Source of the DNA: a virus
Strand: one strand, 5' to 3'
DNA: 23,020 nucleotides
IMG/VR virus record: IMGVR_UViG_3300042397_001717
Span: 1 to 23,020 of that record
Below, piece by piece: positions 5,325 through 23,020 of the stretch. A model generated the notes under the pieces. The model saw only the letters and a list, made by a program, of their open reading frames with translations, made no database searches and was not told where the DNA came from. The position numbers were made by a program, and so were the translations under genes. Each line of letters starts with the position of its first letter. Positions within the stretch are counted from its first letter, which is position 1.

Positions 5325-6929
5325 GTGCGCATCTTTGGTCTGCAAATAACAAAAGCTGAAAATGAAAAAGAAGAAATCCGTTCATTTGCTCCTCCTCCAA
5401 ATGAAGATGGTGCAATAGAAATAGCACCTATTGGTGGTGTTTACGGAACTTACTTAGATTTAAGTGGACAAGCAAAAGACGAAGCTGAAATAGTCACACG
5501 TTATCGTTCTATGGAGCGAGATGCCACAGTTCGTCGAGCAATTGAAGACATAGTAAATGAAGCTATTGTTGTCAGTGAAACCGAAAAACCAGTTAAGATA
5601 GATGTATCTTCTACTCAATTGTCTGTTTCTTTAAGAAAAAGAATAGAAGATGAGTTTGATGGAATTCTAAAACTTCTTGATTTCTCCAATAAAGGTTATG
5701 ATATCTTTCAACGTTGGTATGTAGACGGTCGTTTGAAGTACCATGCAATGATTGATGAAAAAAGTCCTGAAAAAGGGATTAAAGAACTACGATATATTGA
5801 TCCAAGAAAGATCAGAAGAATAAGAGAAATTGTCAAGAAAAAGTTAGGTGATAATGTCGATGGGTTTGAGAAACTAATAAAGCAAGAATACTATATCTAT
5901 TCAGAAAAAGGTTTTGCAAAAAATGTAAAGAATGGTCAATCTTTTGATCCAACTGATAATGACATTAAAGGAATCCGTATAGCTAAAGATTCTATCGTTG
6001 ATGTAAATTCCGGTTTATATACAGAAGATAACTCACTTATTATCAGTCATTTAGACTCAGCTGTAAAGCCATTAAATCAACTTCAAATGCTAGAGAATGC
6101 ATCTATCATTTATCGTTTGGCAAGAGCACCAGAACGCAGAGTCTTTTATCTAGATGTTGGTGATTTGCCAAAAGCTAAAGCTGAACAGTATGTTCATGAT
6201 ATGATGACTAAGCATAAAAATAAGTTAGTCTATGACTCCACAACAGGTGAAGTTAGAGATGATAGACGTTTCATGACCATGTTAGAAGACTTTTGGTTAC
6301 CTAGAAGAGAAGGTGGTCGTGGTACTGAAATAACTACACTTCCTGGCGCTGCAAATTTAGGTGAAATGGACGATATTAATTATTTCAAGAATAATCTTTA
6401 TGAGTCATTAAATGTTCCATCATCCAGATTATCTACTGATTCTACTTTCAGTCTCGGCAAAACAAGTGAGATAACTAGAGATGAAGTAAAATTTGCTAAG
6501 TTTATTCTAAGACTTAGAAATAGATTTGCTATGTTGTTTGATGGTATCTTAGAGAAACAACTTGTTCTTAAGAAAATCTTGACCATGGAAGAATGGTTGG
6601 AAATTAAGAATGTGATAAGGTATAACTTCATTGAAGATAACCATTATCAAGAACTGAAAAGAATAGAGATTCTAAACGGAAGATTAGAAGCTTTAAGAAA
6701 TATCCAAGACTATGTTGGAATCTATTATTCCAAAGCATGGGTAAGAAAGAATGTTCTATTTCTTATGGAAGAAGAAATTGACGAGCTCGGTAAAGAAATG
6801 GAAGATGAAAAAATTACAGAACCACCGCCAGAACCGGATGGTGATGCTAATGATGATGGGTTTGCAGATAGACACGGCAAGTCTCTTCTCAATGGTGAAG
6901 AGAAAGTTTATGAAAATAAAAAGTTATAA
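5325..6929 (+). CDS. gp20: Portal vertex protein (T4 gp20-like)
   Basis: A 534-residue protein (T4 gp20 is 524). Twelve copies form the ring at one capsid vertex: it starts prohead assembly, docks gp17 during packaging and later joins the tail. Recognisable family stretches are RYRSMERDATVRRAIEDIVN (about residues 39-58) with NEAIV directly after it, the ELRYIDPRKIRRIRE region, LNQLQMLENASIIYRLARAP (about 250-270) leading into a RRVFYLDVGDLPK segment, and LPGAANLGEMDDINYFKNNL followed by a LNVPSSRL tunnel-loop region. The start codon is GTG. The stop TAA is embedded in the next late promoter box. The C-terminus is acidic and proline-rich. Family membership is clear from these stretches and from the gene order gp17-18-19-20. 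Confidence 0.96.
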   Translation: MRIFGLQITKAENEKEEIRSFAPPPNEDGAIEIAPIGGVYGTYLDLSGQAKDEAEIVTRYRSMERDATVRRAIEDIVNEAIVVSETEKPVKIDVSSTQLSVSLRKRIEDEFDGILKLLDFSNKGYDIFQRWYVDGRLKYHAMIDEKSPEKGIKELRYIDPRKIRRIREIVKKKLGDNVDGFEKLIKQEYYIYSEKGFAKNVKNGQSFDPTDNDIKGIRIAKDSIVDVNSGLYTEDNSLIISHLDSAVKPLNQLQMLENASIIYRLARAPERRVFYLDVGDLPKAKAEQYVHDMMTKHKNKLVYDSTTGEVRDDRRFMTMLEDFWLPRREGGRGTEITTLPGAANLGEMDDINYFKNNLYESLNVPSSRLSTDSTFSLGKTSEITRDEVKFAKFILRLRNRFAMLFDGILEKQLVLKKILTMEEWLEIKNVIRYNFIEDNHYQELKRIEILNGRLEALRNIQDYVGIYYSKAWVRKNVLFLMEEEIDELGKEMEDEKITEPPPEPDGDANDDGFADRHGKSLLNGEEKVYENKKL

Positions 6930-6949: not shown

Positions 6950-7168
6950 ATGGATAGATTAAAGAACATTTTAGCTTCTGCAGCTGAAGGTAAGGCAAGT
7001 GATTTTGCATCTGCTGTTCACGATGAGTTAAATGCTAGGATTATGGATAGCATTGAGAATAGAAGAATTGAGATTGCTGATTCTATCTTTGCCAAAGATG
7101 TCGAAGAGATTGATATGGGATCTGTTGACTCAGAAGTAGATGATGTCGACTCATCTAACGAGGAATAA
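6950..7168 (+). CDS. gp67: Prohead core protein (T4 gp67-like)
   Basis: A 72-residue protein (T4 gp67, also called PIP, is 80). It is a small component of the internal scaffold core and is normally degraded by gp21 during head maturation. The N-terminal two thirds form a helix (residues 1-48, with LNARIMDSIENRRIEIADSIF very like the T4 pattern of MAARTIDLIKEEKIAIA), followed by a short acidic tail (DVEEIDMGSVDSEVDDVDSSNEE). The acidic tail is shorter than in T4. Position between gp20 and gp68 supports the call. An AAAGAAGG ribosome site precedes the ATG. Confidence 0.88.
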   Translation: MDRLKNILASAAEGKASDFASAVHDELNARIMDSIENRRIEIADSIFAKDVEEIDMGSVDSEVDDVDSSNEE

Positions 7169-7178
7169 GGAAGAAAAA

Positions 7179-7739
7179 ATGAAGACGTTTAAATCATTCT
7201 TGTCAAGCATAAACGAATCTCCAGAAGAGCCAAGAGGCAAGGATGAGCGTCGTTTCAAGAAAATGCATATAGATGCTACAGATGTTACTGATTATCCTAT
7301 ATCAGGACAAGATCATGTATTCAAAGGCAGCACAAAAAAGAATCCTGGCCGTATTGGAGACATTTCTGAACCAGATACCGATCATTATGACACACAGTAT
7401 GTCGATAATGGAGATGAAGGTGAGGTAAGTCGCGGTGAAGAAGAGGATGATGAAGAGGATGAAGATGAAGACGAAGAAGATGAAGAGCGAGTTGTAAAAA
7501 CTAAGAAAATGCGTACCGATATGGTTGGTGAGGAGACTTTAATAGAAGCTGTTAAGCCTGGTGTAGTTGTTCTAAACGATGGTTCCAAAAGAAACATCAT
7601 CGAATCAGAAGCTAAGGTACTAAACGTTTTATTTACTCAATTAAACTCGTCTAATCGTTTAAAAATGGAAGAAAGACTTACCTCTTCAAACAAAGAATTT
7701 CAAAAAGTTTTAGAGTTTGCAAAAACTTCTATTCGGTAA
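7179..7739 (+). CDS. gp68: Prohead core protein (T4 gp68-like) with acidic tract
   Basis: A 186-residue protein, longer than T4 gp68 (141). It is part of the scaffold core. The start at 7179 (MKTFKSFLSS) is chosen over an upstream in-frame ATG at 7140 because AAGGAAG at 7167-7173 fits it and the earlier start would lie inside gp67. Order: a basic, flexible N-terminal region, an almost pure Asp/Glu tract at residues 79-103, then a compact C-terminal domain (residues 125-186, VKPGVVVLNDGSKRN then NVLFTQLNSSNRLKMEERLT) that I recognise from gp68-type proteins of other T4-like phages. LIE-A at 121-124 fits the gp21 cleavage rule (I/L-x-E). The acidic tract is encoded by a purine run at 7436-7489. 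Confidence 0.75.
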   Translation: MKTFKSFLSSINESPEEPRGKDERRFKKMHIDATDVTDYPISGQDHVFKGSTKKNPGRIGDISEPDTDHYDTQYVDNGDEGEVSRGEEEDDEEDEDEDEEDEERVVKTKKMRTDMVGEETLIEAVKPGVVVLNDGSKRNIIESEAKVLNVLFTQLNSSNRLKMEERLTSSNKEFQKVLEFAKTSIR

Positions 7740-7754
7740 ACTAAAAAGGAAGAG

Positions 7755-7762
7755 AATAAATA
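7755..7762 (+). promoter_or_regulatory. Late promoter box AATAAATA for the first fibre
   Basis: The octamer lies in the 72-base gap between gp68 and the fibre gene, 50 bases before the ATG. The leader after it carries an imperfect direct repeat (TATCTCGCTTTA at 7761, TATCTCGGTCTTTA at 7785). Confidence 0.65.
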
Positions 7763-7811
7763 TCTCGCTTTAAACACATTCGTCTATCTCGGTCTTTAAG
7801 GAATATAACAA

Positions 7812-10800
7812 ATGGCTAATATAGTTTTTAGAATCTTTTCGGAAAAGTTAGGTGCTGTAACAGCATCTCAATTCGTAGGTAACTCTGGTGAGATCTTTTA
7901 TGATCCCGATGCCCTATCATTAAGAATTTCAGATGGTGTTTCACCTGGCGGTAGACTATTAGTTGGTAGCGGTGCTGCTGGTACAGTAGCTACAGATATT
8001 AATGTTACACCAACTGGTGGTATCCAAAGCGCCACCGTCCAAGCTGCTCTTCAGGAATTAGATGCTGAAAAGTTATCTAAGTCTGGCGGAATTATGACCG
8101 GTGAGTTGGTATTGTCTAATACTGCTCCTGTAGATGCATATGCTGCTGTTTCTAAGGCCTTTATGGAAACATACGTTGCAAATACCATTGCTTCTGGTGG
8201 TGTTGTTGCAAATAATGTTGTGTTTAATAATGCAAATACAACACTAACATCTAACACTATTCAGGGTGCAGTTGCCGAACTTGCAACAACCAAACTTTCA
8301 CTAGCTGGTGGTGCATTAACTGGTGCTGTTACAACTTCACAAACAATATTTGCTAACAACGAACTTGTAACTAAGTCATATGTCGAGAATTTAATCTCAA
8401 CAGAAGATACTTACATTGATACCATTGCATTCAGTACAGCAAACGGTGCAATGACATTCGTCAATACTGATGGAACAATCATCAACGTATCATTGAACGG
8501 TCGTTATCTACCGCTATCTGGTGGAACAATGACTGGCGAGTTGATTCTATCAAATACAGCGCCAACTTCAAACAATAGTGCTGCTACAGTCAACTACGTA
8601 TCTAATTATGTTAATAATGCATTTGCTAACGGTTCTGTTCAGGCAAACACTATTACATTTAATAACTCTAGCACTACTACAATTAGTTCAAACACAATTC
8701 AGGGCGCAATTGCTGAACTAGAAGCCGAAAAGGTTGGTAAGGCCGGAGATGTAATGACTGGGTTCCTAACCCTTTCAGCAGACCCAACAGCAAATCTTCA
8801 TGCAACCACAAAGCAATATGTTGATAGCAAGATTGCAAATACAAATATTACTTCTAATAATATTACTTATACACCAACCGGTACACTTGCAGCTAATAAC
8901 GTAACAGCAGCTCTAACAGAACTAGATGCTGAAAAGGTTGCCAAGGCTGGCGATACAATGGCTGGTTACTTAACACTTTATGCTGATCCTATTGCACCGC
9001 TTCATGCTGCAACAAAAGACTATGTTGATGATAAGGTAGCCGCTGGTGGTGGTGCTTCACTACTTGACGACCTTCTAGATGTTAATGCTACTGTACCATT
9101 AGATGGCCAGTCACTTATCTATGATGCTTCATTAACAAGATATATTCTACAGAATAGAGTTAAGAATACCGGTGATACAATGACTGGTGCTCTAACACTA
9201 TCTGGTGCACCAACAGCAAACCTACATGCTGCTACTAAAGCTTATGTTGATACTGTTGCTACAACTGCTGTTGCTGCTCTTATTGACTCAGCACCTACAA
9301 CTTTAGATACACTAAATGAACTTGCTGCTGCACTTGGAGATGATCCTAACTTTGCAACAACAGTAGCAACTAATATTGCCGGTAAGGTTGCTAAGGCTGG
9401 TGATACAATGACAGGGTTCTTGACCCTTTCAGCAGATCCTACAGCTAACTTACATGCTACAACTAAACAGTATGTTGATGTTAAGATTGCAAATACTACA
9501 ATTACAGCAAATAACATTTCGTATACACCCACAGGTGATATCACAGCCAATAACGTTACTGCTGCTCTAACAGAACTAGACAACGAAAAGGTTGCTAAGG
9601 CTGGTGGTGTAATGACTGGTGCATTAACACTATCTGGTGCACCAACAGCAAACCTACATGCTGCTACTAAAGCTTATGTTGATACTGTTGCTACAACTGT
9701 TACTCTTGGTGGATTGACTGATGTTATTGACACTGTAAGTAATACAGCAACACAAACTGGATCTCACCTTAAATGGAATGGAACACAGTGGGCTCCTGGT
9801 TGGACTACTGTAGTTCAATCTATTGATACTGTATTTAATAATAATTTTGCTCTTCTACTAAAAAGTGCTACAGCAGCAGTTTCAGATATTTTAATTGATG
9901 GTAATGATGCTATTACATATAATCCATCAACAAAAACTCTTACTCTTGATAGTAATACTATTACTTCAGCCAAGATTCAAACTTGGGATGGAATTACAGA
10001 AAAGGTTGCTAAATCCGGCGATACAATGACTGGGTTCTTGAACCTATCTGGTGCGCCAACAGCTAACCTTCATGCAGCAACTAAACTTTATGTCGATAGC
10101 AAAACTTATGTTATTAATGATTTGACAGATGTTGATACAACTGGTCTTGCAAATGGTCAAGTTCTATCATGGAATGGTACCAACTTTATTCCATTCTCAC
10201 TACCAGCTGGTACAACAGATACATATACAGCAAACTCAACTATCAATGCTAACGGTGTTGTAACATTTACAAAGAGTGATAACAGCACATATACATTAGA
10301 TATTTCTACTGCTGCTGTACTTGTTGGCGGCGATACTATGACCGGCCTATTGACTCTTTCTGGTGCACCAACTGCTAACCTTCATGCAGCAACTAAGGCT
10401 TATGTTGATGCTGTCCTTCCAGATGGTGTTGCAGATGGTCAAGAACTGTATTGGGATGGTACTGAGTGGACTCCTCAACTTGCAACTGCTTTAAGTCTTC
10501 ATGGTTATACTTCTGACGCATTGGCTGAAGCTGCAATGATTGCTACTGGAACACCAATGGGTGGTGGTAGAGTTTACTGGAATACTACAGATAGTAAGTT
10601 TAGACTTTATAATGGCACGGTTTGGTCAGATGTAACTTCTGCTGGTGATGTTGTTGGACCTGCTTCTGCAACTGATAATGCAATTGCTCGCTTTGATACA
10701 ACAACTGGTAAGTTGATTCAGAGTTCTTTAGCTACTATTAATGACACTGGGTCACTTGTTGCAAATAGTGCTTTTCTATCTTCAAACTTGGTTGTATCTG

Positions 10801-11105
10801 GTGCATACAAATCAGGGTTTGCAACTTCAACTGGTGTTCTTGATTGGTCTGCAAGGTCTTACTATAAGATGACTGCATCATCAGCAATAACAGTTAGCTT
10901 TACTAATGTAGATGCTGTATCAGTCAATTCTATGACCGTTGAGATTGCTATGAGTGGTGGTTCTATTACTTGGCCTACAGCTGTTAAATGGGCTGCAGGT
11001 ACTGCACCAACATTGACCAACTCTAAGACTCACCTAGTCATGTTGTCAACTTCAAATGGTGGTACAACCATTCTTGCGTCAGCCTTGACTGACTTCGTAC
11101 CATAA
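7812..11105 (+). CDS. Tail fibre / virion adhesin with MTG...AATK-YVD repeats
   Basis: A 1097-residue structural protein, probably a trimeric fibre for host binding. Residues 1-50 (FRIFSEKLG, then GEIFYDPDALSLRISDGVSPGG) are a virion-attachment-type domain shared with the fibre at 15925. The shaft holds about ten copies of a 26-residue unit (pattern G-x-x-M-T-G-x-L-x-L-S-x-x-P-T, then AATK-x-YVD) near residues 92, 165, 237, 312, 380, 454, 530, 598, 736 and 840, mixed with LTDV...GQVLSWNGT-type units. After GDVVGPASATDNAIARFD (945-962), a common phage-fibre stretch, comes a C-terminal cap (1002-1097) with ITWPTAVKW and GTAPTL, a beta-domain I recognise at the ends of many phage fibres. Ribosome site TAAGGAA. 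It splits the gp68-gp21 order usual in T4. Which T4 fibre, if any, it replaces cannot be told. Confidence 0.85.
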   Translation: MANIVFRIFSEKLGAVTASQFVGNSGEIFYDPDALSLRISDGVSPGGRLLVGSGAAGTVATDINVTPTGGIQSATVQAALQELDAEKLSKSGGIMTGELVLSNTAPVDAYAAVSKAFMETYVANTIASGGVVANNVVFNNANTTLTSNTIQGAVAELATTKLSLAGGALTGAVTTSQTIFANNELVTKSYVENLISTEDTYIDTIAFSTANGAMTFVNTDGTIINVSLNGRYLPLSGGTMTGELILSNTAPTSNNSAATVNYVSNYVNNAFANGSVQANTITFNNSSTTTISSNTIQGAIAELEAEKVGKAGDVMTGFLTLSADPTANLHATTKQYVDSKIANTNITSNNITYTPTGTLAANNVTAALTELDAEKVAKAGDTMAGYLTLYADPIAPLHAATKDYVDDKVAAGGGASLLDDLLDVNATVPLDGQSLIYDASLTRYILQNRVKNTGDTMTGALTLSGAPTANLHAATKAYVDTVATTAVAALIDSAPTTLDTLNELAAALGDDPNFATTVATNIAGKVAKAGDTMTGFLTLSADPTANLHATTKQYVDVKIANTTITANNISYTPTGDITANNVTAALTELDNEKVAKAGGVMTGALTLSGAPTANLHAATKAYVDTVATTVTLGGLTDVIDTVSNTATQTGSHLKWNGTQWAPGWTTVVQSIDTVFNNNFALLLKSATAAVSDILIDGNDAITYNPSTKTLTLDSNTITSAKIQTWDGITEKVAKSGDTMTGFLNLSGAPTANLHAATKLYVDSKTYVINDLTDVDTTGLANGQVLSWNGTNFIPFSLPAGTTDTYTANSTINANGVVTFTKSDNSTYTLDISTAAVLVGGDTMTGLLTLSGAPTANLHAATKAYVDAVLPDGVADGQELYWDGTEWTPQLATALSLHGYTSDALAEAAMIATGTPMGGGRVYWNTTDSKFRLYNGTVWSDVTSAGDVVGPASATDNAIARFDTTTGKLIQSSLATINDTGSLVANSAFLSSNLVVSGAYKSGFATSTGVLDWSARSYYKMTASSAITVSFTNVDAVSVNSMTVEIAMSGGSITWPTAVKWAAGTAPTLTNSKTHLVMLSTSNGGTTILASALTDFVP
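9193..9267 (+). repeat. Exact 75-base direct repeat, copy 1
   Basis: Identical to 9625-9699 and offset by 432 bases (144 codons), so in frame. It encodes the LTLSGAPTANLHAATKAYVD unit plus TVATT. Other copies of the unit differ at many silent sites, so this pair is recent or kept identical by recombination. Confidence 0.9.
9625..9699 (+). repeat. Exact 75-base direct repeat, copy 2
   Basis: Second copy of the repeat at 9193-9267; the sequences diverge right after the shared acaactg. Confidence 0.9.
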
Positions 11106-11108
11106 ATA
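11101..11108 (+). promoter_or_regulatory. Late promoter box CATAAATA for the chaperone gene
   Basis: The octamer contains the first fibre's stop codon (11103-11105) and ends seven bases before the hairpin at 11116, so a transcript would begin about at the foot of that hairpin. Confidence 0.6.
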
Positions 11109-11115
11109 AAAAAAT

Positions 11116-11142
11116 AGGTGGGGTACATATTGCCCCACCTTT
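11116..11142 (+). terminator. Terminator-like GC hairpin after the first fibre
   Basis: AGGTGGGG (11116-11123) pairs with CCCCACCT (11133-11140) around a 9-base loop: eight pairs, six of them G-C, followed by a short TT. The T-run is short, so termination may be partial; the hairpin may instead serve as a protective 5' end for the downstream message. Confidence 0.6.
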
Positions 11143-11159
11143 ACCAGTTGGAAGAATTA

Positions 11160-11591
11160 ATGATCGTATTTACAAAACCAGATGGCGAACTTGAGTTTCC
11201 AATTTCTTTTGATGAGTTGAGAGCAAGATTTCCACATACTTCATTTCCCCAACCATTAATGCAAAGTGCTTTACCTGCAGGATATCATTTATTTCAACAT
11301 GATGATTGCCCAGTCGTAAATAATAAAAAAAGTGTTGCATTTTTTAGAATAGATGAAATGGGGTTTCCAAAAATAGGTTGGAAACTAGAAGATTATTCTC
11401 AAGAAGAGTGGGCTGAGGCTGAACATAAAGTTGAGTTGGAAATAGAACGATTAGCCAAAGAAGTTTCTTGGTGTTTTGCAGATGATGTTCCTGATAAAAT
11501 AAAGAATAAATACAAAGAATATAGAAAAAAACTTTGGGATATTATCAATCAAGATGGATATCCTTTCAATGTAAAATACCCGGAGGCTTAA
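11160..11591 (+). CDS. Tail fibre assembly chaperone
   Basis: A 143-residue protein. I choose ATG 11160 (GGAAG ribosome site at 11150-11154) over a start at 11118, which lies inside the hairpin. The N-terminal half (MIVFTKPDGELEFPIS) is a small beta-like domain; a charged helix follows (about residues 77-102); the C-terminal KYKEYRKKLWDIINQDGYPF then NVKYP matches the tail-assembly-chaperone signature W/Y-x-x-YR-x-x-L-x-x-I-x-x-Q-x-G-(F/Y)-P, ending in a WP- or YP-type motif. Such proteins help fold or join tail fibres and are usually encoded next to the fibre they serve. It sits between two giant fibre genes and its stop abuts the next start, so the 1426-residue fibre is its likely client. 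It is not itself expected in the virion. Confidence 0.75.
   Translation: MIVFTKPDGELEFPISFDELRARFPHTSFPQPLMQSALPAGYHLFQHDDCPVVNNKKSVAFFRIDEMGFPKIGWKLEDYSQEEWAEAEHKVELEIERLAKEVSWCFADDVPDKIKNKYKEYRKKLWDIINQDGYPFNVKYPEA
11505..11512 (+). promoter_or_regulatory. Possible late promoter box AATAAATA before the Asp-box fibre
   Basis: The octamer lies inside the 3' end of the chaperone gene, 79 bases before the fibre ATG. It could give the long fibre gene its own message, but as in-frame lysine/asparagine codons it may be chance. Confidence 0.25.
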
Positions 11592-14500
11592 ATGGATCCT
11601 ATTAGCTTTATGCGAAATCGCGCCGTAAAATCTACACCAGCAACAACTAAGAGTTTTTATGGTCAGACGTGGGTTACAGATAACGTAAATGATAAAACTG
11701 TTTTTGCATTTATTAAAAATGAACAGTTAGCCGTTCCCCCTTACACAGCCAATAGTACAGTAAAGTATGCTGAAACTACTGGATTTTCTGATGCCGTTGA
11801 TGACTGGTCAGGATTTACTCATGCATTTGCTCCAACAAATTGGGGATCTGGTAATTACCACTCTCAATCTGAATCTTGGGAAGTAAATAGAATAACATTA
11901 CCAACAGTTCCAGGTGCGTTTGCAGCAAATGCGGATAGATCTATCATTGTTGCTTATGGTGGTGGAAATGTAAAACCTAAAGTTTCAACCGATTTTGGCT
12001 CAACATGGATTGATGCTAATACTACTTTACCTAATAATGATTTCCCAGGCATTTTGTTTGCAGAAGGTGCTTTCTATGTAGCATATTCAAATGGTCAAGG
12101 CGTATGGACATCAGTTGATGGTATGACTTGGACAAGTACCAGTAGCATCTTAAATTCAAACTATCTTTTAAAAGCTGGTGCTCCTGGGTATACTGTTATT
12201 GGAGACGTAATTTTTAGCGCTGGTAGAGATTATTTTTCTGCTCAAGCCAGAATTGGCGGGACAAATTATGTTTTTGCAAATTTTGATAAAGTATATGATG
12301 GAAACAGATCTTTACGGTTTGTTACAAAAACAGTAAATTATGAACAAACAAACAATGCTGTGTTAGTTATTTCTAATAAAGTATATTCTGTTACTTGGGA
12401 TGGTACAGCACCTACTGCAACTGAAGTTTTTGATACAGATACGATTTCAAGAAGTTTCTTGGCTATTGCATGGGATGAAGTGAACAACAGATACATTTCA
12501 ATTATGGCCGGATCAAGTTGGACAACAGGTAATGAAATCAGAACTTCATCAGACAATGGTGCAACCTGGACATTACTAAAAGCTATACCAGATGCATATT
12601 CTAATAGAAGTTTTATTGTTGTGCTTGCAAATGGCAAAATAGTTATATCCGGTAATGGTGGAAGTGATGTTATTTACTCACCAGACACAGACACATTTAA
12701 TTTTGGTTCAAGATTCAAAATGACAGGTAACTTACGTTTGACAGAAACAAGATTCTTAATAAGTGCTTATAATATGGATACCAACTCATATACTACTTAC
12801 GCTTCTGATTCTGCTGCCGCAACTGATACTACAAGTATTCTTTCAAAAAGAAAGTGGTTCACTCAAACTTGGGCAGGACAAGCAAATGTTATTATTACAA
12901 CATCATCTGATACTCTTAGGACTTCCTCAAATACCAACGTGACATTTAGTGGCACAAAAGACTATCCTAATGATAAGGGGTTGTACCCATCTTATTTTAA
13001 CGCTAATTCTGTTACACAAGGTACATACTCTTCTGGAGGTCTCAACTACGACACAACTTCATATCTGTGTATGCAAGATACTGCTCATGGAAATTATTCT
13101 CAAAATACACCACAGTATGTTGCAAATATTTGGAAGTCAACTGATAATGGTGTGACTTTTGAAAGGTCAGTTGACTATACAAATAAAGTTACATCTGTCG
13201 ATACAATATCGCACCAATTAAGCAATAATCCTAATTCAAACTGGACTGAAATTACAAAGGGTTCTAGTAATAATCCGATCTTTTCATTCTCACGTATTCT
13301 TTGGAGTCCAAACGATTTTTTTAGTACTCTAGATAGAAGAATCAACTCAGTATCTCCTGCTGGGTTAAATGAGATGTTTTATCAAGACGGCGCTTATTGG
13401 GCTTACGGCCACAATGGTGTTTTGATGACTTCAACTACAGGCAACTCGGGTTGGACTAAGTTTGATAATCTCCAAAAACTTTGCTTTGGAACAAGAATTA
13501 CTGCATTTGCAAAGAACGGAAATAATCTTATTGTATTTACAAACCTTTATTCAACACAATGTTTGTATTCAACAGATCTTGGTGTAACTTGGACAGATTA
13601 CACTACAGCATTTAGAACAGCTTGGGGTATATCTTTCACTGGTTGGAATATTAATAAGGATTCTGTAGCTACTGCATGCATTTGGGATGGAACTCAGTGG
13701 ATTGTTGCTGCGGCCGGAGCAAGTTCTGGAAGCCTTCTTGTTTCTACAAACGGTTCAACTTGGACTAAGAAAACTTCTTACCCAAGCAATTTTTCAACCA
13801 TTCCTATGACAATTACAAAACACCCAACTGACTCAACAATCTTAATTGGTTGTAGGAATGCTGGAATTGTTGTTACTAATACTTCTCTTGCTACATTCAC
13901 AACTCTTGGTTTTAGCAGTTATGGGTTTTCTTCAATTGTTACAAAGATTATTTGGAATGGTTCTACTTGGTTTGCGTTCTTTGAAACGGGGTCACAAGGT
14001 AGATATACTTATTCAACAGTAGCTAATCCAACCTCACTTGCAAATTGGAAAAGTCCATTAGTCCTAGCCGATTTCCCGGCCACTAGAAGATTTGGCGGCA
14101 CAACATCAACACTCAATGCAACAAATGCTTATTGGGATGGTACAAACATATTAATTGTTGATTACTACAATAGAAAAGCATTCAAATCACCAAATGGTGA
14201 TAACTGGACAGAAATGACTGGTTTGTATAGTAATACTCTTTGGAAGAAGTTCTCAAAACATCCATGGGCTATTGCTTCTAATGGCACTATGTATGTAGCA
14301 GTCGGTGACATGTGTGATAGTGGACACTCAACTGATGGTGGCTCAAATTGGTCAACAAATGCTGGCACAAAAATTGCTGCTGGTGTGGAAGATCCAACAG
14401 CAAGTCTCACCTTAGATACATATATTGCAAGTACGCTTACTATAACAAATGGTGGTTCTGGATACCCACCAAACGAAAGTAATCTTGCTGTAACAGTGAC

Positions 14501-15872
14501 ATTTAGTAATCCAACAGGTACTCCGGCAGTAAAACCAATTACTGGTACTATTATGACAAATAGTTCTGGTGCAATTTCACAAATTAACATTGATAACTAT
14601 GGATTTGTTTCAGGTTACACAACAGCTCCTATTATTACTAGTATTACTGGAAGCACAGGAAGTGGTGCAACAGCAACTGCAACATTGTTGTACAAACTAG
14701 GCGCAACAAGAATGATCAACTTAGGTAAGGGTCTTGGTCCTACTTACAGTACATATGCCAGCTTTCCATCTACTAAACACGACCAATTTGAAATTGGTGT
14801 TGTCCCAGAATATCCAGATCCTACCGGTATACCAGGAGTATCACTAAATAGTACACCAACACGAATAAGATTTGCTTTGGGGAACAAAAGGTTTACAAAT
14901 ACTGGTTTTAATAGCGGTGCATCTCTTTTAAGTGGTAATGATTCGGGTTCAATGATAATTAATAGTCCTTCAGGTTCAGGTGTATTTTTTTCGGGGGTAA
15001 ATTACTCAATATTAAATAGTTTTTCAAACGGACAACAAAAAACCTCATGTCCAGTATCATATAAAAGTATATATACATCAGATTGGATTTGTAAAGAATT
15101 TGCTCCAACAACAACTAAACCTCTTACTTCTTTTAATGCATCTTCTCCTTTTGTTGACAATACTGGTGCTCCATATGTCTTTTTTAATATTGAAAAAAGA
15201 GTATTTGCAAGTAATATTTCAATTTTTAGTGGTGGATTTAATTACAACACAGAGATAACTACTTTAGTTTCTGCAATTCAAGCTGAATATACTTCTTCTA
15301 ATAACACGTTAAAGTTTACCCCATCACTTTATAAGTATGGTATTGAAACTTACGGATCTTTCATTAGTGAAGACAATCCAACAAGTATTATTGCTAACTT
15401 ACCAGTAGACATGTCACTTAAATTAACTGGCACTGACTTGGATTCGTTTAGATCAAATAATCAAATATATATTACTACTCCGTTTGTTTTTGTTGCGTGT
15501 AACGGCGGGAACGAAAATACCCCAGGTAATACTGTTGTAATTACTATGCAAAAACCAAAAACGTATCCTATGAACGATTTTACACAGCAACAACCAAATT
15601 CAGTTAATGAGGTGTATTGGTTTAAGTCTACAAACGGCGGATCAAGTTGGACTGATATTTCTGCTCCAATAAGAGCTAAATATAATACTTTAGGTATTAT
15701 ATTTTCACAACAAAAATATAGTGTTGCACTTCCACTATTCATGAATTGGTCACAACATGAACAAGTGTGGTATTCAATCACACAAGATCAATATGTTATA
15801 TGGTCAAGAGACTTAACAAACTGGACTGTTGCAAGAGATCCTGCAATTCAGTTCCCAGATTATCCAGATTAA
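11592..15872 (+). CDS. Giant tail fibre/adhesin with Asp-box propeller repeats
   Basis: A 1426-residue protein, start fixed by GGAGG at 11582-11586 and an ATG touching the chaperone stop. It carries at least ten Asp-box-type motifs (S/T-x-D/N-x-G-x-x-W): STDFGSTW 132, SVDGMTW 174, SSDNGATW 319, STDNGVTF 516, STDLGVTW 660, STNGSTW 718, SPNGDNW 866, STDGGSNW 913, STNGGSSW 1346, SRDLTNW 1405. These mark blade turns of sialidase/BNR and photosystem-assembly-type beta-propellers, here probably two or more propellers. Residues about 946-1032 (ITNGGSGYPP ... SGATATATLL) are a separate beta-module known from phage fibres. No arginine triad or FRIP motif shows it to be a sialidase, so a glycan-binding adhesin is likelier. 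It lacks the N-terminal domain shared by the fibres on either side; how it attaches is unknown. Residues 1033-1340 match nothing I recognise. Confidence 0.75.
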   Translation: MDPISFMRNRAVKSTPATTKSFYGQTWVTDNVNDKTVFAFIKNEQLAVPPYTANSTVKYAETTGFSDAVDDWSGFTHAFAPTNWGSGNYHSQSESWEVNRITLPTVPGAFAANADRSIIVAYGGGNVKPKVSTDFGSTWIDANTTLPNNDFPGILFAEGAFYVAYSNGQGVWTSVDGMTWTSTSSILNSNYLLKAGAPGYTVIGDVIFSAGRDYFSAQARIGGTNYVFANFDKVYDGNRSLRFVTKTVNYEQTNNAVLVISNKVYSVTWDGTAPTATEVFDTDTISRSFLAIAWDEVNNRYISIMAGSSWTTGNEIRTSSDNGATWTLLKAIPDAYSNRSFIVVLANGKIVISGNGGSDVIYSPDTDTFNFGSRFKMTGNLRLTETRFLISAYNMDTNSYTTYASDSAAATDTTSILSKRKWFTQTWAGQANVIITTSSDTLRTSSNTNVTFSGTKDYPNDKGLYPSYFNANSVTQGTYSSGGLNYDTTSYLCMQDTAHGNYSQNTPQYVANIWKSTDNGVTFERSVDYTNKVTSVDTISHQLSNNPNSNWTEITKGSSNNPIFSFSRILWSPNDFFSTLDRRINSVSPAGLNEMFYQDGAYWAYGHNGVLMTSTTGNSGWTKFDNLQKLCFGTRITAFAKNGNNLIVFTNLYSTQCLYSTDLGVTWTDYTTAFRTAWGISFTGWNINKDSVATACIWDGTQWIVAAAGASSGSLLVSTNGSTWTKKTSYPSNFSTIPMTITKHPTDSTILIGCRNAGIVVTNTSLATFTTLGFSSYGFSSIVTKIIWNGSTWFAFFETGSQGRYTYSTVANPTSLANWKSPLVLADFPATRRFGGTTSTLNATNAYWDGTNILIVDYYNRKAFKSPNGDNWTEMTGLYSNTLWKKFSKHPWAIASNGTMYVAVGDMCDSGHSTDGGSNWSTNAGTKIAAGVEDPTASLTLDTYIASTLTITNGGSGYPPNESNLAVTVTFSNPTGTPAVKPITGTIMTNSSGAISQINIDNYGFVSGYTTAPIITSITGSTGSGATATATLLYKLGATRMINLGKGLGPTYSTYASFPSTKHDQFEIGVVPEYPDPTGIPGVSLNSTPTRIRFALGNKRFTNTGFNSGASLLSGNDSGSMIINSPSGSGVFFSGVNYSILNSFSNGQQKTSCPVSYKSIYTSDWICKEFAPTTTKPLTSFNASSPFVDNTGAPYVFFNIEKRVFASNISIFSGGFNYNTEITTLVSAIQAEYTSSNNTLKFTPSLYKYGIETYGSFISEDNPTSIIANLPVDMSLKLTGTDLDSFRSNNQIYITTPFVFVACNGGNENTPGNTVVITMQKPKTYPMNDFTQQQPNSVNEVYWFKSTNGGSSWTDISAPIRAKYNTLGIIFSQQKYSVALPLFMNWSQHEQVWYSITQDQYVIWSRDLTNWTVARDPAIQFPDYPD

Positions 15873-15893
15873 AGTAAGCATTAAACTTTTCTT

Positions 15894-15901
15894 AATAAAT
15901 A
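15894..15901 (+). promoter_or_regulatory. Late promoter box AATAAATA for the RCC1-like fibre
   Basis: The octamer lies in the 52-base gap between the two large fibre genes, 23 bases before the ATG at 15925. Confidence 0.65.
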
Positions 15902-15924
15902 ACTAAATACGATAGGGAAGATAA

Positions 15925-18900
15925 ATGTCATTTAACAATACTACATTCCAACTGTTTTCACAACATTTAGGAAACTCAGATGTTGCCGATTTTATTGGTG
16001 AAAGAGGCGAGATTTTCTACGACCCTAATACTGGCATTTTGAAACTATCGGATGGTATTAATCCTGGTGGTATCTCTATTACATCTGGTGCTGGTGGATC
16101 ATTTGATCCTTCATTGTACTATACTCGTGCAGCAGTAGATGGTAAGTTTACTCAACTTATTGGTTCTGCTGATACTCAAAGTGATACACTTGGGGAACTT
16201 CAGGTAAAGGTAGATGATAAACTTGGACTTGCTGGTGGTACACTTAGAGGTCCAGTTTATTATGCGCCACTTCCAACAGGAACAAATGAACTTACCAATA
16301 AGAACTATGTAGATCAAAAAGTATCAACAAGTATTACTACTTCACTAGCAACATTAACAACTGATTATGTTGCAGAAGGTTCACTAAATAAGTACTTCAC
16401 TGATACTAGAGCAGATGCAAACTTTGCACTAAACGTTGCACAGCCATTAAAGACTCAAGGTCTTGTTCGTAAGGTAAATGGTATTGCACCTGACTCAACT
16501 GGTGGAATTTCTATCTCACTTACCACAACAGTTACTGGTGATCTTGCATCTCAGCCTGCATCAGCAGATGATGGCACACTTTATGTTATCGTTAATGATG
16601 CTGATGCAAATAATGATGGTCGCAGTTTTGTTTGGGCTAATACTTCAAGTGAATGGGTAGAACTAGCCCCATCTGATACTGCAGCTAACGACGCTCGATA
16701 TATTAATGTTGCTGGTGATACAATGACCGGCAATCTAACACTAGCATCTAATCCAACCACTCCACTACATGCTGCAACCAAGCAATATGTAGATACTGCT
16801 GTAAGTGCTATTGCATTTGCTCTCGATGATCTAAGTGATGCCAATACAGCAACTGCAACTGTAGGTCAATCACTAGTTTATAATGGTACAAACTGGGTTC
16901 CAGCAACACCTGCAGCAAAACTCGGTGACCTTACAGATGTGTCTAATACAGCACCAGGCACTGGTTATATTCTTGGTTGGGATTCTGCAAATAGCGAATG
17001 GAAGCCAATTGCTTCTTCTGCATCACCAACACTTGCTTCATTGCTTGATGTTGATATTACTGGTGTAGCAAATAATAGTACCCTTCAATATAGTGCTGCA
17101 ACAACTGAGTGGAAAGTTACTACACCACAACCAAAGAAAGCAACAATGTTTGCAGACCATGGTGTTGGTTGGGGTCGTTCACATGTTTATGGAAATGAAG
17201 TATTCTGTGCAGGGTTTGCTGAATCCGGTGATAGAATTCACGCATGGAATCATTCTGGTCATGTAAGAAGATCTATATCAGCACCATTTGAAGTAAGACC
17301 ACCTGGTATTGCAAAACTTGTTGAAGGCATTTCATACCAACATGTACTTGGCACTGACGGTATTCTTTATTCTAGAGGTAGAGATGCCGAAGGTCAAATG
17401 GGTACAAATGCTTCGCCTGGTCGTCCAATTGATGATAGAGGTGGTATCTTCAGACAAAATCGTGACCCCAAAGTTTATGGACCTGGCATCTCTGTAATCA
17501 ACGTATGGTCTCATCGTGTTCACAATTGGGACGGTGGTGACGGTGGTTCGCTTTGGGTAGAAGTGAATGATAATGGCACTAAGAAGCTTTATGCTGCTGG
17601 TTATAATGGCAATGGTGTACTTGGTGTTGGAGGTATCGCAAATGCGGGTGCACTAACAAGTTTATCTATATTGGACGGTAAGGGAATTAAGAAACTTGAT
17701 TGTGTGCACACACTTATGTGCTTGATTACCAACGACGGTGAACTACATGCTGCTGGTTATAACAACAACGGTGCGCTTGCTCTTGACTTTATTGGTAATA
17801 CTTCTATTGCAAGAGCAAAATATGCTGATGGAACGTTTGTAACAAATGCAATTAATGTTCAAGTTTCATGGGTCAATGGTACTGGTACACAATCATGGTT
17901 CCTAAGAGGCGATGGGACAGTTTGGGGTTCTGGTTTAAATACAGAAAGTAACCTTGGTATTGGTGTTTCAACTAACGTTACAAAGTACAATCAAGTTCTT
18001 ACGGCCGCAAGTACACCAATTACTGGTGTTGTAAAGATCAGAGAAGTTGGTCGTGGTCAGTTGTTCATGCTAAAGTCTGATGGCACTGTTTGGGCTACAG
18101 GCAGAAATCATGATAGTTGCTTTGGTAACTCAGCATTTACACCAAATACAAATATTGGTAACTTTGCTAGACAGATTCAATCTGATATTCAAGATTTCTG
18201 GTCAGTTGGCGGTGCAGCACCTGGTTGGTGTACTGTATACTGGAAGAAAAATGACAAAATGTTCTTTAGTGGAACCAATGCTAACTTTACTGGTGGTTCA
18301 TTTACTGAAGCGCTCGGCGGAAATTACTATAACTTCTTACAACCTATTGAAACTTTTGATGGTAAAACTGTTGTTGATGTAAAACCGTTCAATAAAATAA
18401 ATGATGATCAAACTGGTAATTACCGCTCTACCATGTTCCTCACTGACGATGGTGAAATCTATGTTTCAGGCTTTAGTAATTATTGCCACGTTATAAATGA
18501 TGCTGATGGTATTTACCTTAAGACTCCTTATAAATTAACAGACTATCTTGAAGGTGCAACAGAAACTGTTTATGTAAGCAAGACAGAAACAGATCTTCCA
18601 ACAGGTGCATCAAATGGTCAAGTACTTACTTACAATGGTACTGAATGGATTGCAAAGACATTTGTTCCTGACACATTAACAACTGTTACTAAAGTAACTG
18701 GTCAGTGGACACTTAATCCTGGGTTGAATAATGTTTCGTTTACTGTTCCATTCAACCAAGTGGTAAATGCTTTCGTTCTTGGTAACATTCCAAATGGTAT
18801 CGTGACATATGACGGTACGTTCATCGTAACTAATGGAAACGTGAATGCGGTTGGTAATCAGTATGCATGGTCTTATACTCTTGCTGGTGATGCTCATGCA

Positions 18901-19071
18901 TTAGAACTAGTCTCTATTCCTGATCAGATTGTCGGTACAAGCGGAACGATTTTAAGAACTGCTGGGACTTTTGGTGGTGGTAGAATAGATGCTAACGTTC
19001 TTAAGTTTACCATCAATAACAAAACAGCATCACCACAGACCGTCAACTATGGTTATGTGCCATTATCATAA
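15925..19071 (+). CDS. Tail fibre/adhesin with RCC1-like beta-propeller
   Basis: A 1048-residue protein. Residues 1-52 (FQLFSQHLG, GEIFYDPNTGILKLSDGINPGG) match the N-terminus of the fibre at 7812, so both probably dock on the same virion site. Two MTG/AATK-YVD units (about 104 and 263) and LTDV...LGWDSANSEW-type units form the shaft to about 400. Residues about 415-865 hold around eight RCC1-like repeats with the D/N-G-x-(V/L)-(W/Y)-x-x-G-x-N pattern: GTDGILYSRGRDAEGQMG 476, NDNGTKKLYAAGYNGNGVLG 548, TNDGELHAAGYNNNGALAL 602, RGDGTVWGSGLNTESNLGIG 661, KSDGTVWATGRN 717, and TDDGEIYVSGF 840. This predicts a seven- or eight-bladed propeller, likely the receptor-binding head. The C-terminal cap (925-1048) with LGNIPNGIV, ELVSIPDQIVGT and VNYGY is a domain ending many T4-like and cyanophage fibres. 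Ribosome site AGGGAAG. Confidence 0.85.
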   Translation: MSFNNTTFQLFSQHLGNSDVADFIGERGEIFYDPNTGILKLSDGINPGGISITSGAGGSFDPSLYYTRAAVDGKFTQLIGSADTQSDTLGELQVKVDDKLGLAGGTLRGPVYYAPLPTGTNELTNKNYVDQKVSTSITTSLATLTTDYVAEGSLNKYFTDTRADANFALNVAQPLKTQGLVRKVNGIAPDSTGGISISLTTTVTGDLASQPASADDGTLYVIVNDADANNDGRSFVWANTSSEWVELAPSDTAANDARYINVAGDTMTGNLTLASNPTTPLHAATKQYVDTAVSAIAFALDDLSDANTATATVGQSLVYNGTNWVPATPAAKLGDLTDVSNTAPGTGYILGWDSANSEWKPIASSASPTLASLLDVDITGVANNSTLQYSAATTEWKVTTPQPKKATMFADHGVGWGRSHVYGNEVFCAGFAESGDRIHAWNHSGHVRRSISAPFEVRPPGIAKLVEGISYQHVLGTDGILYSRGRDAEGQMGTNASPGRPIDDRGGIFRQNRDPKVYGPGISVINVWSHRVHNWDGGDGGSLWVEVNDNGTKKLYAAGYNGNGVLGVGGIANAGALTSLSILDGKGIKKLDCVHTLMCLITNDGELHAAGYNNNGALALDFIGNTSIARAKYADGTFVTNAINVQVSWVNGTGTQSWFLRGDGTVWGSGLNTESNLGIGVSTNVTKYNQVLTAASTPITGVVKIREVGRGQLFMLKSDGTVWATGRNHDSCFGNSAFTPNTNIGNFARQIQSDIQDFWSVGGAAPGWCTVYWKKNDKMFFSGTNANFTGGSFTEALGGNYYNFLQPIETFDGKTVVDVKPFNKINDDQTGNYRSTMFLTDDGEIYVSGFSNYCHVINDADGIYLKTPYKLTDYLEGATETVYVSKTETDLPTGASNGQVLTYNGTEWIAKTFVPDTLTTVTKVTGQWTLNPGLNNVSFTVPFNQVVNAFVLGNIPNGIVTYDGTFIVTNGNVNAVGNQYAWSYTLAGDAHALELVSIPDQIVGTSGTILRTAGTFGGGRIDANVLKFTINNKTASPQTVNYGYVPLS

Positions 19072-19134: not shown

Positions 19135-19791
19135 GTGAAACTTATTACAGAACTCAATGAAGATGTTGGTGTTATTGTAGAAAAGAATGAAGATGGTAAG
19201 AAGAACCTTTACATCGAAGGAATCTTCTTACAGTCTGCGATTGAAAATAAGAATGGAAGATTCTATCCAGAACTAGTAATGGACAAAGAAGTTGCCCGTT
19301 ACATGAAAGAATCAGTTGAACAAAAGAGAGCACTGGGTGAACTTGGCCACCCAGAAGGACCTCAGATCAATCTAGATAGAACTTCACATCTTATTACATC
19401 TTTGAAAAAAGAAGGCACTAACTATGTCGGTAAGGCCCGTATTATGGATACACCTATGGGCAATATCGCAAAAGGACTTGTTGAGTCTGGTGTTCGTTTA
19501 GGTGTATCATCTCGTGGCATGGGAACTTTAGCAAAGAATGCTAAAGGCATCATGGAAGTACAAAGAGACTTTAGACTTGCAACTGCTGCAGATATTGTAG
19601 CAGATCCTTCTGCTCCTAATGCTTTTGTCAATGGTATTATGGAAAATGTAAGTTGGGTTTGGGATGATAAATATGGTTGGAAGGCTATGGAAGTAGCAGA
19701 AAGTATTCAACATGAAGTCAAGTCAAACTATAAAAAGATTGATGAACAAGTAATGTTACAAATGTTCAATAAGTTTATTGGAAATCTTTGA
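19135..19791 (+). CDS. gp21: Prohead core scaffold protease (T4 gp21-like)
   Basis: A 218-residue serine protease (T4 gp21 is 212). Held in the prohead core, it cleaves gp23, gp67, gp68, gp22 and itself after I/L-x-E, allowing capsid expansion. The fold is that of herpesvirus-type assembly proteases. H72 in LGELGHPEG and S125 or S126 in RLGVSSRGMG fit the catalytic His and Ser of T4 gp21 (recalled as His85 and Ser140), with a spacing of 53-54 here against 55. Also typical are NGRFYPELV (about 40-48) and LATAADIVADPSAPNAFV (about 147-164). The start is GTG with AAGGAT upstream, which may hold its level down. It has its own late box on each side, and the fibre block separates it from gp68. Confidence 0.95.
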   Translation: MKLITELNEDVGVIVEKNEDGKKNLYIEGIFLQSAIENKNGRFYPELVMDKEVARYMKESVEQKRALGELGHPEGPQINLDRTSHLITSLKKEGTNYVGKARIMDTPMGNIAKGLVESGVRLGVSSRGMGTLAKNAKGIMEVQRDFRLATAADIVADPSAPNAFVNGIMENVSWVWDDKYGWKAMEVAESIQHEVKSNYKKIDEQVMLQMFNKFIGNL

Positions 19792-22142: not shown

Positions 22143-22169
22143 AGGGAGGGCTTTATGCTCTCCCTTTTT
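22143..22169 (+). terminator. Rho-independent terminator after gp23
   Basis: AGGGAGGGC pairs with GCTCTCCCT (one G-T pair) around loop TTTAT and is followed by five Ts. It should end the gp23 message. The minus-strand endonuclease gene ends within its loop (stop at 22153-22155). The complement lacks a T-run, so it need not work in both directions. Confidence 0.85.
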
Positions 22170-23020
22170 GCCATATGTATTTAGCATTACCACAGTCCCA
22201 AATTCGATCATAATTATTGTTTAACATATTATCAAATTCCGTTAATTCGGAATCAAAACTTTCCAGTAAATCTTTAAGTTTATGTTTTTGAAACTTCACT
22301 CTAGAATAAAGTTTTGCTGTACCTTTTTTCCAATAGAAATAATTACATCCTGTGTCTTCAACATACACAAAATTGCTGTAAATATAACTTTCACCTGTGC
22401 CAAATCTCAAATCTGCAAAAGTTGTAAGTATTTCTGGTTGTTTATCTTTAATGAAGTTTTTCATAAGTTTACTAACACCACCTACAACTCTTATATTACT
22501 AGGTGAAGTCATACGTATGCATTCAAATCCAGCATTAAATCTATTCTTTCCGAAAGAACTTACCATAACTAAATCATTACCGTAGAATAACCCGTAGTGA
22601 TAATTAGCACCAACACCATTTGATAGATGGTGAAGATTATGAAAGTTTAATGCTTCTTTTGTATTAATAACTTTAATTATACAATTTCTGGCATAAATAG
22701 TTTGTATTGATTTATGACCGAACTTTTTCAATATCAAACTTTTGATCTTTTCAAGATTATCAGATTCAAAAACAGTAATCAGTTGATAACCTGCTTCTTT
22801 GCATTTCAACATCTTCATCCTATGATAGTTCTTATCTTTATTAGATGAGAACTCAGAATGCCAATAAAGTCCACAATACTCAATTGCTATCTTTTTGGTG
22901 TGATTTACGATATCTAATTCATAAGGTGCTATAATAGTTTTGTTACAATATTCTATTTCATGTTCAGGAAATTCAGAAATACACCATTCGCACAAATCTA
23001 TTTCAGCTTTGCTCCTATAT
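22153..23020 (-). CDS. VSR-like (EDxHD) homing endonuclease, runs off right edge
   Basis: The frame is open to the window edge: 288 residues are visible, beginning YRSKAEIDLCEWCISEF, so the real start lies beyond 23020 (a TTG at 22995 is only the first possible internal start). The pattern SKAE near the N-terminus, then YELDIVNHTKKIAIEYCGLYW, HSE, KNYHRMKMLKC and GYQLITVFESD is that of the VSR-like EDxHD homing nuclease fold (E in SKAE, D in ELD, E in AIEYCG, H in YWHSE). The C-terminal half (AREN-type ARNCIIKVINTKEALNFHNL, then HYGLFYGNDLVMVSSFGKNR, VVGGVSKLMKNF, FADLRFGTGESY) is the domain that accompanies it in many phage proteins, probably for DNA binding. It is convergent with gp23 and uses the terminator hairpin sequence for its last residues (QKGRA). 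Likely a selfish element targeting a nearby structural gene of related phages. Confidence 0.82.
   Translation of the reverse strand, partial: YRSKAEIDLCEWCISEFPEHEIEYCNKTIIAPYELDIVNHTKKIAIEYCGLYWHSEFSSNKDKNYHRMKMLKCKEAGYQLITVFESDNLEKIKSLILKKFGHKSIQTIYARNCIIKVINTKEALNFHNLHHLSNGVGANYHYGLFYGNDLVMVSSFGKNRFNAGFECIRMTSPSNIRVVGGVSKLMKNFIKDKQPEILTTFADLRFGTGESYIYSNFVYVEDTGCNYFYWKKGTAKLYSRVKFQKHKLKDLLESFDSELTEFDNMLNNNYDRIWDCGNAKYIWQKGRA

Follow-up and report, generated by a model that had tools for sequence, protein, structure and literature searches.

An RCC1-type β-propeller as the putative receptor-binding head of a fibre encoded by a T4-like phage

Receptor-binding modules decide the host range of phages, and many of those in environmental phages are unrecognised. 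One described protein with a layout like that of the fibre reported here is Gp45 of the staphylophage phi11, a trimer in which a stem is followed by an internal five-bladed propeller and a C-terminal tower (PMC4901313). Receptor binding has been proposed for its propeller, which is not described as RCC1, unlike the one considered here. RCC1-type propellers are best known from proteins of humans and plants. Proteins made of RCC1 repeats have been found by mass spectrometry in the virions of phAPEC6 (PMC7247149), W70 (PMC11370258) and, as reported in PMC5259590, GAP32. Related proteins of this kind (phrog_4219) include W70_237-239 of Septuagintavirus W70 and those of phAPEC6 and 121Q. The 121Q members that we examined, named chromosome-condensation proteins, are the products of single-propeller genes (about 380-400 aa) that stand in arrays and lack a shaft, unlike the fibre described below. 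The literature that we searched held nothing relevant on phage RCC1 proteins as receptor-binding proteins, and no description of an RCC1 propeller internal to a fibre that also has a tip domain.

The window, meaning the whole stretch of DNA analysed, comprises the 23,020 bases of a virus record. It carries a T4-type gene order (small terminase, gp17, gp18, gp19, gp20, fibre genes, gp21, gp22, gp23), and the presence of gp17 through gp23 in sequence identifies the virus as T4-like. A homing endonuclease fragment adjoins gp23 (22153-23019, minus strand; phrog_3339, E = 7e-80). The features relevant to the fibre are as follows.

5325..6929, plus strand: gp20 portal (phrog_213, E = 4e-189), left border of the interval that holds the fibre cassette.
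7812..11105, plus strand: sister fibre P0002, with PHROG tail fibre matches and with adapter and shaft repeats as in P0001, without a propeller.
11118..11591, plus strand: tail fibre assembly-like chaperone (phrog_8746, E = 1.4e-6; Pfam Phage_tail_APC, 0.0043, under its cut-off).
11592..15872, plus strand: P0003 (1426 aa), a probable second propeller protein with six Asp-box motifs.
15925..19071, plus strand: RCC1-headed fibre protein P0001 (1048 aa), from ORF and translation.
15925..16089, plus strand: N-terminal adapter of P0001 (aa 1-55), from alignment; common to P0002 and to fibre-like proteins of 44 viral contigs.
16822..16905, plus strand: shaft repeat 1 (aa 300-327), P0002-repeat HMM, 20.2 bits (best shuffled score, 8.1).
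16921..17010, plus strand: shaft repeat 2 (aa 333-362), same HMM, 19.5 bits.
17038..17106, plus strand: shaft repeat 3 (aa 372-394), a weaker copy that scores 7.7 bits with the same HMM and so does not exceed the best shuffled score.
17152..18564, plus strand: RCC1-type β-propeller (about aa 410-880), from Pfam, repeat HMM, AlphaFold2 (pTM 0.78), VIA-align and Foldseek.
Near aa 424 (degenerate), 478, 554, 604, 663, 719, 776 (weak) and 842, plus strand: copies of the propeller motif, from pattern, repeat HMM and eye.
18595..18651, plus strand: shaft repeat 4 (aa 891-909), directly after the propeller; same HMM, 20.9 bits.
18685..19068, plus strand: C-terminal cap (aa 921-1048), a module present on several unrelated shafts.
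19135..19791, plus strand: gp21 prohead protease (Pfam Peptidase_S77, 4.5e-37), right border of the cassette.

The fibre genes form a cassette of about 11.3 kb (7812-19071) within the gp20-gp21 interval (7140-19071). In 17 relatives that have both genes on the contig, this interval holds small or prohead-type ORFs only, and RCC1 or recognisable fibre genes are absent from it in all 17; judged from these gene orders, the cassette therefore looks like an insertion at the gp20-gp21 site. Because it is located among head genes, attachment of P0001 to the head or neck of the virion rather than to the baseplate is possible. The cassette also encodes P0003, whose six Asp-box motifs (S-x-D/N-x-G-x-x-W/F) compare with a mean of 0.14 and a maximum of 3 in 1000 shuffled sequences. 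At the thresholds used, no relatives of P0003 appeared in viral contigs, PDB, Pfam, PHROGs or NCBIfam, and its motifs suggest that it is probably a second, Asp-box propeller protein beside P0001.

An initial annotation of this DNA had placed P0001 at 15925-19071, which is exact in coordinates, plus strand and length, and had read about eight repeats of a D/N-G-x-(V/L)-(W/Y)-x-x-G-x-N pattern at residues 415-865 as an RCC1-like propeller. Profile searches place the protein in the RCC1 superfamily: the Pfam RCC1-like domain PF25390 matches aa 461-791 (E = 1e-20; 74.8 bits, below the whole-domain cut-off of 150), and RCC1_2 (E = 4.4e-8; 33.1 bits, cut-off 22) and RCC1 (E = 7.5e-5; 23.7 bits, cut-off 21.7) both pass their cut-offs, while the Pfam search, taken to E 10, brought up no repeat family besides RCC1. 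An HMM built only from the repeats of other phages' RCC1 proteins matched P0001 at E about 1e-19, with six clear copies (473, 554, 598, 659, 708 and 833) and one very weak copy (770). The eighth domain that it listed, at aa 215-221, falls outside the propeller and is a chance match. A degenerate eighth copy near aa 424 was read by eye, and the hairpin predicted there has low confidence. The literal pattern has two matches (aa 663 and 719; shuffled mean, 0.002), and a relaxed form has five (478, 604, 663, 719 and 842; shuffled mean, 0.09). The repeats are present, far beyond what chance would give, and number about eight if degenerate copies count; the extent of the propeller needs correcting to about aa 410-880.

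We modelled aa 406-880 with AlphaFold2, without templates, from a well-registered alignment of 24 sequences. The model reached a pTM of 0.78 and a mean pLDDT of 69.9, which is moderate, and was weakest at the first and last blades; an earlier AlphaFold model with poor terminal blades gave the same answer on the fold. Foldseek returned UVR8 as the best match (E = 2.5e-22), and the best 50 matches listed all belong to the RCC1 superfamily by title or known family. In VIA-align comparisons, the model matched UVR8 with a Z of 27.2 (338 residues, 4.0 Å) versus about 14-17 for unrelated propellers; seven-bladed lectins occur among the structural neighbours at a lower Z of about 14. The closest solved folds (UVR8, the RLDs of HERC1 and HERC2, RPGR, RCC1 and BLIP-II) are those of cellular proteins, with about 13-20% identity to P0001 over the aligned part. 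The input alignment was made up of viral RCC1 homologues, which makes the model dependent on the RCC1 family; the Pfam match is independent. Profile and predicted fold agree in supporting an RCC1-like propeller in a phage fibre. The whole model aligns along residues 15-381 of UVR8, which covers its entire seven-bladed ring, so the predicted propeller most likely has seven blades. Eight motif hairpins are present in the model, and eight blades are possible, the end blades being of low confidence.

Within P0001, the adapter is followed by shaft repeats, the propeller, a further shaft repeat and the cap. The HMM that located the shaft repeats was built solely from repeats of P0002 and found copies on both sides of the propeller, which is thus set inside a run of shaft repeats. 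The shared adapter, this shaft match and the PHROG tail fibre matches of P0002 mark P0001 as a fibre-type protein, as does its context, with an adapter as in the sister fibre and a chaperone-like gene nearby. The cap had been expected to come after the propeller; it is indeed C-terminal, although the shaft repeat at aa 891-909 intervenes. Direct search of the viral contigs gave no useful close relatives of the whole of P0001 or of its propeller, homologues of which emerged only when an alignment served as the query, and the shaft motif of the window, used as a query, gave no match above threshold in other RCC1 proteins.

We consider it likely, with a probability of about 0.75, that P0001 serves a T4-like phage as a fibre and binds the host through its RCC1-type propeller head; for the binding itself, this reading draws on comparison with other phages. 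The N-terminal adapter would attach the fibre to the virion, with the shaft of repeats holding it outward. Phage fibres are usually trimers, and if this one is too, and is present in the virion as we presume, three copies of the propeller would stand around the fibre axis. The chain would return to the axis by way of the further shaft repeat, and the cap would probably close and trimerise the tip, or else add a second binding site. The initial annotation had suggested a protein rather than a sugar as the possible target. Most solved RCC1-family proteins do bind proteins, but seven-bladed lectins have the same general fold, at lower Z, and either kind of target is possible.

Cultured Pseudomonas phages provide the comparison. 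Gp12 of PollyC occupies the position of T7 gp17, between an internal virion protein and holin/TerS/TerL. Its N terminus matches the PHROG tail family phrog_33642 (E = 1.7e-66, aa 1-334), its match to the Pfam T7 tail fibre (6.7e-5) falls just under the cut-off, and its RCC1 head spans about aa 406-862. Like P0001, PollyC gp12 and the fibres of Ppr_SeaP1-4 carry an RCC1 propeller as fibre head; they have a T7-type N terminus, a shaft rich in Ala-type helical repeats (read by eye) and the propeller at the C-terminal end, whereas in P0001 the adapter is of a marine-virus type, the shaft repeats differ and the propeller is followed by a cap. Across these five T7-like phages, TerL is 99-100% identical and fibre aa 1-320 are 98-99% identical, whereas the heads are 35-91% identical and fall into two types (35-38% identical between types, 66-91% within). 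The N4-like phage Littlefix, which belongs to another family and is recorded from PollyC's host strain CT12, has a tail protein with a C-terminal RCC1 head like that of P0001 but with unrelated N-terminal parts and no cap found; it aligns with the PollyC fibre over the RCC1 head only (35%, 470 aa). All four SeaP phages were isolated on the laboratory strain Pseudomonas protegens Pf-5, and since they carry both head types, head type does not simply follow isolation host.

In PollyC and SeaP the heads vary while TerL and the fibre N terminus are near-identical, and Littlefix aligns with PollyC over the head alone; receptor-binding modules behave in this way. It is the cultured relatives that display this divergence on a conserved base; searches of the viral contigs yielded no close relative sharing the fibre of the window. 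Host recognition is indicated by the RCC1 proteins in virions, by the PollyC fibre in the gp17 position and by the variable heads on conserved bases. The comparison thereby supports the initial annotation's view of the propeller as a putative receptor-binding head, and the idea is directly testable in the cultured Pseudomonas phages, in which the heads differ and the rest of the fibre does not.

The same variation bears on a different role, in which the propeller would bind other virion proteins as a docking platform, as in tail nozzle proteins. RCC1-family propellers are often protein-binding, which counts towards such a role. So does the nozzle protein of phage SU10, whose seven-bladed propeller bears a loop onto which short tail fibres dock (PMC9509320). 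The propeller of P0001, however, lies far from the adapter and between shaft repeats, and phages that are nearly identical in the other genes compared have strongly divergent RCC1 heads, which is not the behaviour of a docking surface; we regard docking as very unlikely.

The cap invites a comparison of its own. Uncultured viral contigs (L061-L077) encode it at the C terminus of fibre-like proteins whose shafts are collagen-like or of other kinds, and in L027 and L028 the adapter almost immediately precedes it. Propeller and cap would be exchangeable cassettes. Although the cap had initially been called a known domain, it has no match in Pfam, PHROGs or 50,697 cultured phage records. The binding part could be either the propeller or the cap. 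Phage tips often carry a specific binding domain, and the terminal position of the cap and its recurrence on many different shafts would fit a fibre in which the cap is the receptor-binding part and the propeller a lateral spacer or low-affinity surface adhesin. That arrangement seems unlikely to us: the cap is rather well conserved, with 38-46% identity between very different fibres, more than would be expected of a specificity module, and the fibres of PollyC, SeaP and Littlefix have the propeller at their C-terminal end and as their variable part.

The propeller as binding head is also at odds with the name under which such proteins are filed. P0001 matches phrog_4219 ('regulator of chromosome condensation') at 2.8e-16. 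PHROGs puts this family in the category 'DNA, RNA and nucleotide metabolism', the 121Q annotation reads 'DNA condensation protein', and the authors of the phAPEC6 study suggested a role in ordering packaged DNA (PMC7247149). On that basis P0001 would act in DNA condensation or otherwise on nucleic acids, in line with the names that phage RCC1 proteins bear in PHROGs and in several genome annotations. We find this highly improbable, because P0001 joins its RCC1 part to the adapter and shaft of a fibre, and because the match of phrog_4219 extends over the whole T7-like tail fibre of PollyC and the family includes the W70 virion proteins (PMC11370258). The condensation name is based on the repeat, not on tested function, and the functional category of phrog_4219 is probably wrong. 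If RCC1 propellers are indeed receptor-binding heads, many phage genes at present listed under DNA metabolism would have to be reinterpreted as host-recognition genes.

To survey RCC1 proteins across phages, we searched viral contigs with four aligned RCC1 segments, a seven-sequence alignment having been too divergent as a query. RCC1 proteins proved common in phages, with relatives encoded by 189 viral contigs; 80 of these were taken and, with L078, L079 and the window, gave 62 clusters. The initial annotation had called an internal propeller followed by a cap unusual. Given the precedent of phi11 Gp45, a propeller internal to a fibre with a tip domain is not new, but within the 62 RCC1 clusters sampled, the combination of RCC1 with this adapter and cap is confined to the window. 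Many sampled contigs hold arrays of single-propeller genes (about 380 aa), and some RCC1 proteins have tail-type N termini. In a descriptive PHROG scan, made without a background set, of 142 ORFs neighbouring RCC1 genes, the named matches were mostly to tail fibre, other tail or virion families. We think it more likely than not that phage RCC1-repeat proteins form a widespread class of propeller heads that bind receptors and pass from one fibre base to another, unrelated one. In the form shown by the window, the propeller is inserted into the run of shaft repeats and has a mobile cap after it, in a cassette that also holds a probable second, Asp-box propeller protein.

Three further arrangements were observed among the RCC1 contigs. 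On each of two phage contigs (L147 and L148), seven to eight RCC1 single-propeller genes stand in tandem, resembling the 121Q array; such arrays are possibly a repertoire of alternative adhesins. In L078 (346-4488), a fibre-like protein has RCC1 repeats apparently broken by NHL-like repeats (by eye). A 2267-aa protein in L156 (4150-10950) carries about 33 RCC1 repeats between N- and C-terminal parts that, by eye, resemble a tail tubular or head-closure protein.
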